Below are positions 17,197 through 22,282 of a stretch of 43,747 bases of DNA, one piece after another. Within the stretch, counting starts at the first letter, position 1; every line of letters starts with the position of its first letter. The translations under genes and the position numbers were made by a program. The notes beneath the pieces were generated by a model. It saw only the letters and a list, made by a program, of their open reading frames with translations. It did not search any database and was not told the DNA's origin. The DNA lies in the NCBI GenBank assembly GCA_016779185.1, contig JADHOA010000004.1, forward strand, positions 1-43,747, in the 5' to 3' direction. This stretch comes from Rubripirellula sp. GTDB taxonomy: Bacteria > Planctomycetota > Planctomycetia > Pirellulales > Pirellulaceae.

Positions 17197-17979
17197 ATGT
17201 TTTTACAAGAACCCGCAGCGAATCCCTATGACTTAGAGTTACGAGTCTTGGGGTTCCCACTTCGAGTTAGTTGGACTTTTTGGGTCGCTGCGGCTGTGAT
17301 TGGATACGACCTTGCTAATGGGTTGGATCTTGCTCTAGGAAGCGAAAGTTTCGGAGTCGTCCCGCTACTGGCGATTTGGGGAGTCTGCATTTTTGTTTCG
17401 ATCACCATTCATGAACTTGGACATGCGATTGCGTTTCGTCGCTTTGGTATCGAATCACGCATCGTTCTGTATTTCATGGGTGGTATGGCAATTCCCAGCA
17501 GGTCATTCCAGTACCGGCAAGAACTAACTCCACAACAATCGATGTGGGTTTCGATTGCAGGACCGCTAGCGCAGTTAGCTTCGGCATTGGTGTTTATTTT
17601 CATCTTGGCCATGTTTTCCTATGCGTCACCTATTCCATGGCCACTTAACGAAATCAAGTTTTTGCAGCGTTTTTCAGCAGGGAATCCAATCGATAGCGTA
17701 GGCTTACTCACGCTTTCGATCATGTACATTCAGCCGAGCATCCATTGGGCGATTTTAAATCTAGTCCCAGTCTGGCCTTTGGATGGTGGTCGATTTGTTC
17801 ACTCCTTGATGCAACTTCGAGGCGGCACGATTGTGATGACCTTGATGGTAGGCGTCGTTGTTTCAGCATTAGTTGCTCTCTTCGCGTTTCAGAATCAATT
17901 GTCCTTTCTTGGATTCATGTTTTTGATTCTTGGATGGAACAATTTTCAAGCTGTCCAACAGCTACAAGGTTCGCGATAG
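17197..17979 (+). CDS. Site-2 protease family (M50) membrane metallopeptidase
   Basis: Intramembrane zinc protease. It has 260 residues, about six membrane segments, the zinc motif HELGH at residues 72-76 and the third ligand in NLVPVWPLDGGR (Asp196). FMGGMAIP and SIAGPLAQL are typical of the SpoIVFB/S2P subgroup. There is no PDZ domain and no CBS domain, so it is the compact SpoIVFB-like form. The substrate cannot be predicted: such enzymes release membrane-held transcription factors or clear signal peptides. It lies 152 bases after the prolyl oligopeptidase stop. Confidence 0.93.
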   Translation: MFLQEPAANPYDLELRVLGFPLRVSWTFWVAAAVIGYDLANGLDLALGSESFGVVPLLAIWGVCIFVSITIHELGHAIAFRRFGIESRIVLYFMGGMAIPSRSFQYRQELTPQQSMWVSIAGPLAQLASALVFIFILAMFSYASPIPWPLNEIKFLQRFSAGNPIDSVGLLTLSIMYIQPSIHWAILNLVPVWPLDGGRFVHSLMQLRGGTIVMTLMVGVVVSALVALFAFQNQLSFLGFMFLILGWNNFQAVQQLQGSR

Positions 17980-18334: not shown

Positions 18335-18583
18335 GTGGCCAAGAAAAAAGCTACTAAGAAAGCGGCAGCTAAAAAAGCTACCAAGAAGAAGGCTGTAAAG
18401 CGCACAGCTAAGAAAGCAGCAGCTAAAAAAGCTACCAAGAAAGTTGCTAAGAAAAAGGCAGCTAAAAAGGCAGCTAAAAAAGCTACTGCGAAAAAAGCGA
18501 CTAAGAAAGTTGCAAAGAAAAAAGCAGCTAAAAAAGCAGCGACCAAAAAAGCTTCTAAAAAAGCAGCTAAGAAGCGTCGTTAA
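18335..18583 (+). CDS. Histone H1-like Lys/Ala-rich DNA-binding protein
   Basis: An 82-residue, extremely basic protein made almost only of Lys and Ala with some Thr, Val and Arg, ending KKRR. Such proteins resemble the C-terminal tail of eukaryotic histone H1 and of chlamydial Hc1/Hc2, and bind DNA or RNA by charge. The GTG start is chosen because GGAGGA sits just upstream and translation gives MAKKKATKKA. A 17-residue block (KKATKKVAKKKAAKKAA) occurs twice, at residues 31-47 and 53-69. A strong terminator follows, so it is a single-gene unit or the end of one. The minus-strand frames over it are hydrophobic artefacts. Confidence 0.88.
   Translation: MAKKKATKKAAAKKATKKKAVKRTAKKAAAKKATKKVAKKKAAKKAAKKATAKKATKKVAKKKAAKKAATKKASKKAAKKRR
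18425..18541 (+). repeat. Imperfect 66-bp tandem repeat within the H1-like gene
   Basis: Bases 18425-18475 and 18491-18541 encode the same 17 amino acids with a 66-base period and synonymous differences. The wider gene consists of AAA/GCT/GCA codon runs. It likely expands and contracts by slippage or recombination. Confidence 0.7.
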
Positions 18584-18766: not shown

Positions 18767-19846
18767 TTACAAAACCGGTAACGATCCCTGATTCGGTTTC
18801 TGCATCGTTTGTGATGCTATTTGCCTCACCATGGCTTTGGTTACTGCTTCGAGCGGTGCTCGAGCTTTCTCATCCGAGGAAATGACGTCGGCCAATCGAC
18901 CTTCATCACCCGCTGTTCGAAGCGTGATGTCAATTGGTAAACATCCTAGAAAAGGCACGGCGGTTTGTTCTGATTTGTCCCTGGCTCCTCCTCGCCCAAA
19001 GATGTCGTAGGTCTTTCCGCAATCAGGGCATAGAAATCCACTCATGTTCTCGACCATTCCCAACAGCGGAATATTCACTTTACGGAACATGCTGATGGCT
19101 TTGACCGCATCCAGAAGAGCGACTTCCTGAGGTGTGCAAACAACCACGGCTCCTGCCAAGGGAATTGCTTGAGAAATGGTCAGCGCAATATCGCCAGTTC
19201 CAGGCGGCATATCGATAACCAAGTAATCCAATTCACCCCAATTCGTATCGGAAAGGAATTGGTTGATTGAGCCATGAAGCATCGGACCACGCCAGATTAC
19301 AGCCTGATCCGGTTCAACCAAAAATCCCATCGACATCACTGGCATATCGCCACCTAGCAGGATGGGTTCAATTTTCTTGTTGGCACTCACCGCTGGACGG
19401 CCTGACAGTCCTAGTAGTTGAGGAATGCTCGGACCATAGACATCCGCATCCAGTAATCCCACTTTAGAACCCAGTCTTCGAAGGGTAAGGGCAATACTTG
19501 CAGCAACAGTGCTTTTACCGACACCACCTTTCCCGCTACCTACAGCGATGACGCTTTTCGCACGGAGAGCAATCTGACCAAGCCGCACTGGCGGGCGATC
19601 GTGTAGCGAGATGATGATTTTAGGTGATATACCTGGCGCAGCAGCCGTCACCTTGGATTCAATGGCGTCTACAAATTCTTGTTGGATTGGCATCGAGTGT
19701 GAACTGAGACCAATTTCAATTTTGACGACGTCGCCCTCAATCGCTAAGGATCGAATTTGTCCCATGCTTTCGATTGGGCGACCGGTTTCAGGGTCTGGGT
19801 GATTGCTGATAGCTTGGCGGATAGTTTCGGCGGTAAAACTTGACAT
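18767..19846 (-). CDS. Mrp/ApbC family P-loop Fe-S carrier ATPase
   Basis: ParA/MinD-related ATPase that carries and transfers Fe-S clusters. The 359 residues comprise an N-terminal MIP18/DUF59-like domain (about 5-85), the deviant Walker A GSGKGGVGKST (103-113), DADVYGPS, the Walker B stretch LVIDMPPGTGD (209-219) and the cluster-binding pair CPDC (Cys273, Cys276). This is the complete Mrp pattern. The ATG at 19846 gives the normal N-terminus. It is a functional match to the cysteine desulfurase elsewhere in the window, though not adjacent. The intergenic space to the next gene upstream is about 110 bases. Confidence 0.95.
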   Translation of the reverse strand: MSSFTAETIRQAISNHPDPETGRPIESMGQIRSLAIEGDVVKIEIGLSSHSMPIQQEFVDAIESKVTAAAPGISPKIIISLHDRPPVRLGQIALRAKSVIAVGSGKGGVGKSTVAASIALTLRRLGSKVGLLDADVYGPSIPQLLGLSGRPAVSANKKIEPILLGGDMPVMSMGFLVEPDQAVIWRGPMLHGSINQFLSDTNWGELDYLVIDMPPGTGDIALTISQAIPLAGAVVVCTPQEVALLDAVKAISMFRKVNIPLLGMVENMSGFLCPDCGKTYDIFGRGGARDKSEQTAVPFLGCLPIDITLRTAGDEGRLADVISSDEKARAPLEAVTKAMVRQIASQTMQKPNQGSLPVL

Positions 19847-19960: not shown

Positions 19961-20392
19961 TTAGTCTACGTCCCAGCCCAGTCTTGCGAAGTAGCCATCT
20001 AGTATTGGCTTGCACCGAAATAGATCTTCCGGTTGCTCTAAAAAGTATGCAATATCGAACTCCGCCAACGCTAACCTTTGGCTCAGGTTAAGCTGATTGC
20101 AAGCTACAAAGTGCAGTCGAGATACCGGTGTTCTGCTAAGCGTTAAAATATTATCCAAAGAAGTAACCAGATTTTTTCGACTAACCTCCCAAAATACGAT
20201 GGCCCTTTGGTGAGGGGTAATGCTGGGGATGTCGATTAATCGCAGATTGTTGATGATAAAGTTCACATTCGAGCCGAAAAGATCGGGATAAAATCTGCGG
20301 AGGCTATCCGACCAGCGTGTTCCGTGTTCAAAAAAAATCCAATGCAGGGTTGGTGCTTCGCCGATACCGTGTTGATGTCGATGACTTGTCAA
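19961..20392 (-). CDS. Small protein coupled to the NtrC-like gene; possible degenerate receiver domain
   Basis: A 143-residue protein without a clear family. Its TTG start overlaps the TGA of the upstream NtrC-like gene (TTGA), so the two are probably translated as a coupled pair. From about residue 60 the pattern of strands and helices resembles a response-regulator receiver: AIVFWEVSR (strand and possible acidic site), a helix, PVSRLHFVAC (strand), then the ALAEFDIAYFLEQPEDL segment, which looks like the usual 'A..GA..yl.KP....l' end. The KP lysine is not conserved (QP). This reading is inference from pattern only. Confidence 0.7.
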   Translation of the reverse strand: MTSHRHQHGIGEAPTLHWIFFEHGTRWSDSLRRFYPDLFGSNVNFIINNLRLIDIPSITPHQRAIVFWEVSRKNLVTSLDNILTLSRTPVSRLHFVACNQLNLSQRLALAEFDIAYFLEQPEDLFRCKPILDGYFARLGWDVD

Positions 20393-21786
20393 GACTCACT
20401 CCGCTTGGGCATTTGCTCTGCTTCAAAACTGTCTAGTTTTCGAAGCAATCGAGATCGAGATATACCTAAACTTCTTGCCGCTTCTGCACGATTCTGATTT
20501 GCGGCATTCATTGCTTCGTACAGCAACGATTTTTCGTATTGCTTGACTTGTTCATCTAGTGATTGGATTTGTTTTTTTACTTTTGGTGAGGAAGGTCGGA
20601 AGGATCTAACACTGAGAGGCAAGTCTTCTACTCGAATCGCTTCTCCAATGGCATTTTGACTGGCATACCGAATCGTTTCTTCAAGTTCGTGAAAATTATT
20701 TGGCCATGGATAATAAACCAGAGCATCAAGGGCGGGACGGCTAATTCGTTCTGCAGAAAATCGACCGGTAACTCGATACTGTCCCAATATTGCCATCGCA
20801 ATTAGCTGAAGGTCTTCGACTCGCGCAGAAAGCATTGCCAAAGTGATTTGAATGGTATCCAAGAGATCGCTCAATCTTGGATCGATAACTTCTGAAGAGT
20901 GAGTCGGGCTTCTTGGTTCATCGGATAAAGTTTTGTGATTAGTCAACTGTGGAACGGTTTCACAAATCGCTATCAGGCGAAGACGGTTCGGATAGCTCTC
21001 AAGCAGCGACAATAGGCGTTGTTGAGTCGGTAAAGAGGTTCGATTTAGTTGATTGAAGAGTATCGATCCGGTTGCAGATTCTGAATCACTTAGGCGATTG
21101 ATAAGAGGCATGACGGAGGCATCCAGTAGCTCCGCATCCATCAGGGGGCCGTCGATTCGAATCAGGGGTTCCCCGGGTGCAGAACGTTGATGGACGTGTG
21201 TTGCCAATAATTCTGCTCCACCACCGCTAGACTGAAACAAGTTGACGTGGGTTCGAACCGAGCAAGCAATCTCGGTCCGACGCCGCATCTTTTCTGCTTC
21301 TCGAGATGTGCCAATGAGCAAATATGAGCCCAGACCTGCCTGACGTTGCCGCCACTGATCAAGACGCTGCCTGACGGCCACAGCGTCTTGTATTTCTGGA
21401 TCTACTTGGCGATCCTCGAACAAACCAGCGATACCGAGTGTAAAGCGATTCTCGGATGATCCAACACGAACGTATCGAACCTCTTTGGTTTCGGGACGCA
21501 ATGCACCGCCGGACTGGGGTGGGTGAAGACGTAACGAGGCGGTTCCACGACTGTAGAACCCCGGCGGCGGAGAAAGACTTGCGGCGATTAGGTCGAGGGG
21601 ATCACCTGAGATTGGAGTTCCGGCTTTGCAACGACGACCGATTAGCAGTTCACCATCCACTCCGAGCCAGGCCGAGCAGCCCGCTGAAAGATAAGCCAAC
21701 TCATCATCTTGGTTGATCGCCCACACCACCGCAGATTCTTGCTCGAGGAGACGAGCTAGCCGGCGAATCTTTGTGCTTGTTGACAT
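20389..21786 (-). CDS. NtrC-like protein with degenerate AAA+ domain: PAS-like, pseudo-AAA, Fis-type HTH
   Basis: A 465-residue protein with the layout of a sigma-54 enhancer-binding protein but without its catalytic residues. Residues about 5-125 look PAS-like. Residues about 155-390 follow the sigma-54 AAA+ domain: YPWPNNFHELEETIRYA corresponds to the family YPWPGNxRELENxI. The Walker A position reads QSSGGGAEL instead of GESGTGKE, Walker B reads ILFNQLN instead of LFLDEI, and no GAFTGA loop is visible. The C-terminus has an intact Fis-type helix-turn-helix (NRAEAARSLGISRSRLLRKL, about 432-451). It probably binds DNA but should not hydrolyse ATP or remodel sigma-54. It is coupled to the downstream 143-residue gene. 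Confidence 0.88.
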   Translation of the reverse strand: MSTSTKIRRLARLLEQESAVVWAINQDDELAYLSAGCSAWLGVDGELLIGRRCKAGTPISGDPLDLIAASLSPPPGFYSRGTASLRLHPPQSGGALRPETKEVRYVRVGSSENRFTLGIAGLFEDRQVDPEIQDAVAVRQRLDQWRQRQAGLGSYLLIGTSREAEKMRRRTEIACSVRTHVNLFQSSGGGAELLATHVHQRSAPGEPLIRIDGPLMDAELLDASVMPLINRLSDSESATGSILFNQLNRTSLPTQQRLLSLLESYPNRLRLIAICETVPQLTNHKTLSDEPRSPTHSSEVIDPRLSDLLDTIQITLAMLSARVEDLQLIAMAILGQYRVTGRFSAERISRPALDALVYYPWPNNFHELEETIRYASQNAIGEAIRVEDLPLSVRSFRPSSPKVKKQIQSLDEQVKQYEKSLLYEAMNAANQNRAEAARSLGISRSRLLRKLDSFEAEQMPKRSES

Positions 21787-21958: not shown

Positions 21959-22282
21959 TTAAAATACATCCAGCATAAAATGATGACCCGAGTGGTACCG
22001 TCGGTTGCTCGGATAATAGTTGTGCCAATTCTTGTTGTAGACAGGAATTCTCATTTCGGCGGGGTAACGGTGATAGAGACTATCGTTGCTACGAAAGTAC
22101 TCTTGTCCGTAAAAGTTCTGGGGATAGTAGACATAGGGATAGTGATAGAAGCGATTCCAATCTCGGAAATCAGCCTGTCCCCCCCATGCTCGACCGTATG
22201 CTTTTTGTTCCGCGGTCGCCGATTCTGTTCCCACTGAGTAGCTGCAAATCAGCACAGCCGCAATCATAAGATGACGTAACAT
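21959..22282 (-). CDS. Small secreted Tyr/His-rich protein
   Basis: A 107-residue protein with a signal peptide (MLRHLMIAAVLICSYSVGTESATA, cleavage near TAEQ). The mature part is rich in Tyr, His, Asn and Arg: FYHYPYVYYPQNFYG, MRIPVYNKNWHNYYP and RRYHSGHHFMLDVF. I recall similar small exported proteins in planctomycetes, with conserved YYPQNF and GHHF motifs, but no function is known to me. It is a monocistronic minus-strand gene starting at ATG 22282. A wall-associated or metal-binding role would be speculation. Confidence 0.8.
   Translation of the reverse strand: MLRHLMIAAVLICSYSVGTESATAEQKAYGRAWGGQADFRDWNRFYHYPYVYYPQNFYGQEYFRSNDSLYHRYPAEMRIPVYNKNWHNYYPSNRRYHSGHHFMLDVF

Follow-up and report, generated by a model that had tools for sequence, protein, structure and literature searches.

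The question raised by this locus is whether an NtrC-like protein and the small protein encoded behind it, here called BIG and SMALL, make up one regulator split into two polypeptides that have both been stripped of chemistry. This was the reading of the initial annotation, which also suggested a phosphorylation- and ATP-independent system. The two genes lie in a stretch of 43,747 nucleotides from Rubripirellula sp. (assembly GCA_016779185.1, contig JADHOA010000004.1, positions 1 to 43,747), referred to below as the window.

The array and its flanks

Both open reading frames were confirmed on the reverse strand, together with the overlap described for them: BIG ends in TGA, and the TTG start of SMALL uses the same four bases, TTGA. 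The third gene of the array, coding for Mrp/ApbC, follows 114 bases downstream of SMALL (Table 1). Among 54 same-strand BIG-SMALL neighbours, the overlap is exactly 4 bases in 17, and 30 pairs have a spacing from -4 to +4; the remaining spacings comprise 9 longer overlaps, which are uncertain because the start codon in some loci was set by the analyst's rule, 9 gaps of 5-60 bases, and 6 of more than 60 bases.

Table 1 Features of the array and its surroundings in the window. Strand is given relative to the forward strand of the contig.
Feature	Position	Strand	Remarks
M50 peptidase gene	17197-17979		Mostly on opposite strand to array; recurs near array in 13/37 anchored regions
Lys/Ala-repeat ORF (histone H1-like)	18335-18583		Just beyond Mrp
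Mrp/ApbC (359 aa)	18767-19846	-	NUBPL-type P-loop ATPase, MinD/ParA superfamily; N-terminal FeS_assembly_P; GKGGVGKS, CPDC
SMALL (143 aa)	19961-20392	-	TTG start; stand-alone pseudo-receiver by prediction
TTGA stop/start overlap, BIG and SMALL	20389-20392	-	Read from sequence
GGAG, likely ribosome-binding site of SMALL (function inferred)	20399-20402	-	Six bases 5' of TTG
BIG (465 aa)	20389-21786	-	PAS-like N-terminus, degenerate sigma54-type AAA+, AAA lid, Fis-type HTH
107-aa ORF upstream of BIG	21959-22282	-	Same strand as BIG; no Pfam match at 0.01

Repeat-coding stretches that resemble, by eye, the Lys/Ala-repeat ORF follow Mrp in three further loci (L221, L227, L240). On the other side of the array, a gene of the nuoL/M/N type, nuoN in the cases given a name, is found directly upstream of BIG in L029, L063, L071, L074, L075, L076, L081, L084, L087, L089, L090, L095, L097, and L100; in one nuo-flanked locus, nuoK, L, M, and N were named by NCBIfam over cut-off. 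No complex I subunit gene was present within the flank examined upstream of BIG in the window's genus. The upstream nuo genes suggest that, in some members of the order, the targets are respiratory or redox-related.

The receiver-like protein and the degenerate activator

The SMALL family was collected by iterated HMM searches, in which 8 seed proteins gained 24 members in round one and gave a final 55 members in 70 loci; the weakest member scored E 5e-18 vs 0.14 for the first non-member, the final E-values having been computed for included members and hence being partly circular. By sequence, SMALL is a real gene family. The window protein has no match to the Pfam receiver model (PF00072) up to E 10 and none to anything in Pfam or NCBIfam, and PF00072 matches 1/55 members, with E 0.11. 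The order-level SMALL profile A2, at the cut-offs applied, matched nothing in the genome from which the window comes; window SMALL is placed in the order-level family on the strength of the iterated HMM, its shared position, and its fold.

The AF2 model of SMALL (20 sequences, pLDDT 86.7) consists of five strands (residues 15-21, 44-49, 64-71, 92-99, and 114-118) alternating with five helices (26-39, 52-57, 75-86, 103-110, and 121-137). The structure prediction proposed as a check on the 143-residue protein thus returned a receiver fold, in agreement with Foldseek and VIA. The fold covers residues ~14-137, nearly the full chain (AF2, VIA): the degenerate receiver of the initial annotation stands, and its restriction to the second half of the protein does not. 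The pseudo-receivers of CpaE (4n0p, 1.8e-5) and TadZ (4lda, 1.4e-4) were the top Foldseek matches, with TM-scores of ~0.5-0.7; flavodoxins and other unrelated Rossmann-like folds also appeared, at E ~0.001-0.004. VIA aligned the receiver 3lua with Z 13.2 (119 residues aligned, rmsd 2.6 A) and TadZ 4lda with Z 12.8, and so did not rank TadZ over other receivers. Searched against the PDB, the 22-member order-level SMALL profile matched the receiver-like domain of TadZ (4lda, 5.5e-5), the NtrC receiver (1.1e-4), FleR, and other receivers, and the 55-member profile matched TadZ (2.7e-4) and the NtrC receiver (0.01). SMALL is accordingly predicted, from models and profiles, to be a stand-alone pseudo-receiver.

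The residues of receiver chemistry are replaced in this family. At the column that corresponds in the profile alignment to the phospho-Asp (NtrC D54), Glu occurs in 41/55 members and Asp in 1/55; at the column of the conserved Lys following strand 5, Lys occurs in 1/55. The acidic residue after strand 1 is retained (Glu22; Glu 50/55, Asp 1/55), with metal binding only putative, and Trp27 is kept in 53/55 Pirellulales members. Replacement of Asp by Glu is the classical phosphomimic, so that SMALL proteins with Glu at this site may be locked in a form resembling the active one. Most order-level SMALL proteins end in an LPW-type motif, a possible docking peptide, which is absent in window SMALL.

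In BIG, Pfam detected AAA_lid_14 (2.1e-11) and HTH_8 (4.9e-7), both over cut-off, and Sigma54_activ_2 (1e-4), below cut-off; PAS was called in two order-level relatives and not in window BIG. The model of BIG (pLDDT 81.2, pTM 0.58) was matched best by VIA with the AAA+ domain of FleQ (Z 20.1), the chains of the FleQ-FleN complex following at 19.5, and NtrX and NtrC1 lying within ~1 Z unit of FleQ. BIG is likely to bind DNA, its AAA lid and Fis-type HTH both being intact.

The ATPase residues of the AAA+ domain have largely disappeared. In window BIG the Walker A Lys, the Walker B Asp-Glu, and the sensor II Arg are replaced by A, N, Q, and H, respectively. Pirellulales BIG proteins (n=70) retain the Walker A Lys in 2, the Walker B Asp in 0, the Walker B Glu in 9, and the sensor II Arg in 2 cases vs 58, 56, 56, and 56 among 58 controls, which were relatives from other bacteria picked by similarity to BIG; all four residues are gone in 57/70 vs 0/58. 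The GAFTGA-type sigma54-contact loop was found in 0/104 BIG family members vs 56/58 controls with a broad pattern, the strict GAFTGA pattern recovering just 18/58 controls. In f112, another family of the class, the Walker A Lys is present in 14/14 BIG proteins, which have neither the loop nor the Walker B Asp. With the BIG HMM they reach 214-292 bits, a range that the top ordinary relatives enter (up to 222), and the missing loop is therefore part of the case for counting them as BIG. As read from the alignments, the loss of AAA+ chemistry is graded across the class within one protein family (Walker A Lys in 14/14 f112 vs 2/70 Pirellulales proteins).

Four Cys/His positions were noted in the PAS region of BIG, each present in 28 to 34 of 47 distant members (~60 to 70%) and, among 23 members near the window, in 15, 9, 0, and 0. 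The positions, seen in L065, L029, and other order-level loci, are possibly a former cofactor site.

The description of both proteins as stripped of chemistry was borne out by these replacements, and phosphorylation-independence is well supported by the substituted phospho-Asp and Lys.

Linkage of BIG, SMALL, and Mrp/ApbC

From 99 Pirellulales genomes searched, 70 loci with long BIG matches were taken. SMALL adjoins BIG in 55/70, and Mrp is in view in 49 of those 55; in 6/70 loci SMALL is there and no Mrp is visible, in 2 Mrp is there but the HMM detects no SMALL, and the remaining 13 show neither gene. The place of SMALL is occupied by an unrecognized 182-aa ORF in one locus with Mrp and no detected SMALL (L026), and Mrp lies 3 kb further on (L241) in one of the 6 loci counted as SMALL without Mrp (L079). 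SMALL and Mrp lie upstream of BIG in L080, a rearranged array of genome G047 (SMALL-Mrp at L249), and upstream on the opposite strand in L091. SMALL is carried elsewhere by 12 of the 13 genomes that have neither gene at BIG; none was found elsewhere in the genome of G031. In these 12 genomes and G047, where SMALL is not directly after BIG, it is followed by Mrp in 13/13 loci with sequence beyond SMALL; a second SMALL copy in G056 (L297) lies at a contig end with no neighbour visible and stands outside the 13. Among 22 named relatives, SMALL follows BIG in 20, with one SMALL-less locus ending at a contig edge, and Mrp is present in 11; those without Mrp in view include Stieleria, Roseiconus, Roseimaritima, and R. 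europaea.

Across the class Planctomycetia, the SMALL profile matched in 150/248 genomes at 1e-5, some matches being long ordinary regulators. The class-level loci comprise 40 chosen ones (mostly short frames with better scores) plus 6 f21 regions, and the following rates hold for that choice. In f111, Mrp follows SMALL in 12/12 loci (9 within 0.3 kb, 3 at 1.1-1.4 kb), with no BIG in view; in f21, it does so in 11/16 (5/6 and 6/10 in two sets), again without BIG in view. In f112, BIG precedes SMALL in 14/17 loci and Mrp is nearby in 0/17, yet a single Mrp is present elsewhere in 17/17 genomes; in f113, neither BIG nor Mrp is near SMALL (0/1). Neither partner is in view in 9/46 class-level SMALL loci (f21, 5/16; f112, 3/17; f113, 1/1). 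Matches to the BIG profile at 1e-40 in the 248 class genomes include ordinary NtrC-type proteins, and SMALL was in view in 0/20 of the regions taken from them. Outside the class, a receiver-like ORF was found within ~1.5 kb of Mrp in 0/29 Mrp loci.

SMALL is linked to both partners and mostly retains one after losing the other, and BIG, SMALL, and Mrp very probably form a linked module of the class Planctomycetia. The conservation of the BIG-SMALL pair expected by the initial annotation was found (55/70 Pirellulales and 14/17 f112 loci); a unit of just two polypeptides is not what the loci support, since Mrp comes with SMALL in 49/70 and SMALL precedes Mrp in all 13 displaced loci, and the same linkage is seen in f111 and f21.

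The deviant Walker A motif GKGGhGK[ST] and CXXC define the Mrp/NBP35 Fe-S carriers (PMC6345978). Window Mrp resembles the Mrp/ApbC/Ind1 carriers in its matches to PF10609, the 'NUBPL iron-transfer P-loop NTPase' (2.1e-95), and to FeS_assembly_P (PF01883, 9.9e-10), and in keeping GKGGVGKS and CPDC; it differs from them in falling below the NCBIfam cut-offs for MrpORP and ApbC, and most class members differ in the absence of CxxC. Mrp is single copy at E 1e-30 in 57 of 58 positive genomes (60 searched) and at 1e-20 in all of a set of 23 genomes. The deviant Walker A GKGGVGK is kept in 68/68 Mrp genomes of the class checked and the Fe-S ligand CxxC in 25/68, distributed as 8/12 near the window, 17/33 in other Pirellulales, 0/11 in f21, and 0/12 in f111. 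In 23 more genomes CxxC was found in 0/23 (f112, with Mrp elsewhere, 0/17; f21 and f113, 0/6). Mrp loci outside the class have CxxC in 25/29, a sample of best-scoring matches among 59 genomes and so biased to canonical proteins.

CxxC was scored in Mrp loci L211-L216, L355-L366, L386-L393, and L432-L454 and in the window gene; it is mostly lost, with the ATPase motif kept where scored. The idea that loss of CxxC marks a protein partnered with SMALL is weakened by f112, in which Mrp is not beside SMALL and is also without CxxC (0/17).

The only activity of the module with a motif conserved throughout is the putative MinD/ParA-type ATPase of Mrp. Because this intact deviant Walker A belongs to the array, the label ATP-independent probably does not fit the system taken in its entirety.

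Candidate mechanisms and known systems

None of the three components is new by itself: pseudo-receivers, activators without GAFTGA, and MinD-type partners are all familiar. FleQ carries a Fis HTH, and its N-terminal domain is receiver-like. FleN, a MinD/ParA-type ATPase, binds FleQ, inhibits it, and lowers its ATPase activity (PMC8036289). The likeness to the present array lies in a bEBP partnered with a MinD/ParA ATPase and in the best match of the BIG model, the FleQ AAA+ domain; FleQ, however, has its N-terminal domain in the same chain and a working AAA+, whereas in the present array the pseudo-receiver is a protein of its own, BIG combines a PAS-like N-terminus with a dead AAA+ domain, and an Mrp/NUBPL-family protein is the ATPase. 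In TadZ/CpaE, an atypical receiver is joined to a deviant-Walker-A ATPase (PMC13170226). A pseudo-receiver with a deviant-Walker-A MinD/ParA ATPase is common to both systems, and TadZ/CpaE is the top match of SMALL by family profile and Foldseek; TadZ/CpaE is, however, a fused chain and part of Tad pili, in contrast to separate ORFs 114 bases apart and an ATPase of the Mrp family. No pilus gene was recognized among the recurrent neighbours of the array, several neighbour clusters being without a name.

Regulation of sigma70 promoters has been reported for NtrC proteins that lack GAFTGA (PMC10274813). Such bEBPs (Caulobacter and Rhodobacter NtrC, VspR) share with BIG the loss of the sigma54 loop; in Caulobacter and R. 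capsulatus NtrC, as described, the phosphorylated Asp still matters, and receiver and AAA+ are in one protein. Pseudo-receivers of the FrzS type have a receiver fold without phosphorylation chemistry, as does SMALL, and act by protein contacts (PMC1974792, PMC12632262); SMALL differs in being stand-alone and in its predominant Glu at the phospho-Asp position (41/55). A survey of planctomycete sigma54 regulators retains, by its own description, only GAFTGA-bearing proteins (PMC12316311). Among the titles and abstract openings listed by full-text searches (5 to 12 papers per search, of up to 781 containing the terms, with few subscription journals covered), none describes this split three-gene array.

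We tentatively favour, at somewhat less than even chances, a split FleQ/FleN-like or TadZ-like module in which Mrp would be an ATP switch and SMALL the adaptor to a dead, DNA-binding BIG. BIG would bind DNA at ordinary (non-sigma54) promoters. SMALL would have two docking partners: the inert AAA+ domain of BIG, in the manner of the receiver within an NtrC-type protein, and Mrp, in the manner of the pseudo-receiver joined to the ATPase in TadZ/CpaE. Whether Mrp has bound ATP and is dimeric (and carries an Fe-S cluster, in proteins that keep CxxC) would set the partner of SMALL and thereby the action of BIG; by analogy, this would be a FleQ-FleN-like working with the pseudo-receiver split off and Mrp replacing FleN. 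Against an adaptor stands a three-way linkage that is not universal, being broken in f112 and in 6/70 Pirellulales loci and seen with Mrp in 11/22 named relatives. The usual Fe-S transfer job of Mrp could also explain its presence without regulation.

A rival reading, in our estimate rather unlikely, sees SMALL chiefly as an accessory protein to Mrp that acts in Fe-S or complex I biogenesis, with Mrp being Ind1-like and BIG merely regulating the neighbouring operon. Ind1 matures complex I (PMC6345978), SMALL-Mrp occurs without BIG in view in f111 (12/12) and f21 (11/16), and a nuoL/M/N-type gene is directly upstream of BIG in 14/70 Pirellulales loci; yet CxxC is missing from most class Mrp proteins (kept in 25/68, and in 0/23 more), and SMALL of f112 is linked to BIG rather than Mrp. 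Two genus members, G020 and G017 (99% complete), have no NuoN match at 1e-60 and still keep the array, which counts against an essential nuo link, with the reservation that this threshold is strict and that 0/14 genomes reached the family's own cut-off, so that NuoN absence is not proven. A function in complex I was weakened by these two near-complete relatives and by the restriction of upstream nuo genes to 14/70 loci. Distinctly unlikely, in turn, is a device of BIG and SMALL alone, that is, a bEBP split from its receiver with Mrp as a passenger: 4-base overlaps are frequent, and BIG-SMALL occurs without Mrp in f112 (14/17) and in 6/70 Pirellulales loci, but Mrp follows SMALL in 13/13 usable loci where SMALL is not directly behind BIG, and in f111 and f21 SMALL is without a neighbouring BIG.

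Co-expression alone can conserve operon neighbours, and the three genes might share an operon without any physical or regulatory device; this is very unlikely in our judgement, since SMALL stays with either partner after rearrangement, which chance adjacency does not predict. The view of SMALL as what is left of a decaying response regulator would agree with the replaced phospho-Asp and Lys positions and with the missing Pfam receiver match of the window protein; we regard it as extremely improbable, the open frame being kept in Pirellulales, f21, f111, and f112, and Glu22 (50/55) and Trp27 (53/55) being kept in Pirellulales. In its broadest form, the favoured split module would be a class-wide transcriptional switch in which an Mrp-family ATPase, and neither a kinase nor the bEBP's own AAA+ motor, drives the dead bEBP via a free-standing pseudo-receiver with Glu built in at the phosphorylation site; so extended, the proposal is on balance doubtful.

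In a 2025 review (PMC12632262), the switching of bacterial pseudo-receivers on and off counts as a mystery, for which this array provides a naturally split case: a class-wide split pseudo-receiver with two linkage-identified candidate partners, so that partner choice becomes directly testable. The mostly CxxC-less, single Mrp/ApbC also raises the question of which protein carries Fe-S clusters in the class. Should Mrp prove to be the switch, regulation would be added to the Fe-S transfer for which its family is known; should the class-wide switch be true, the Fe-S carrier family would have been converted to an ATPase with a regulatory task.
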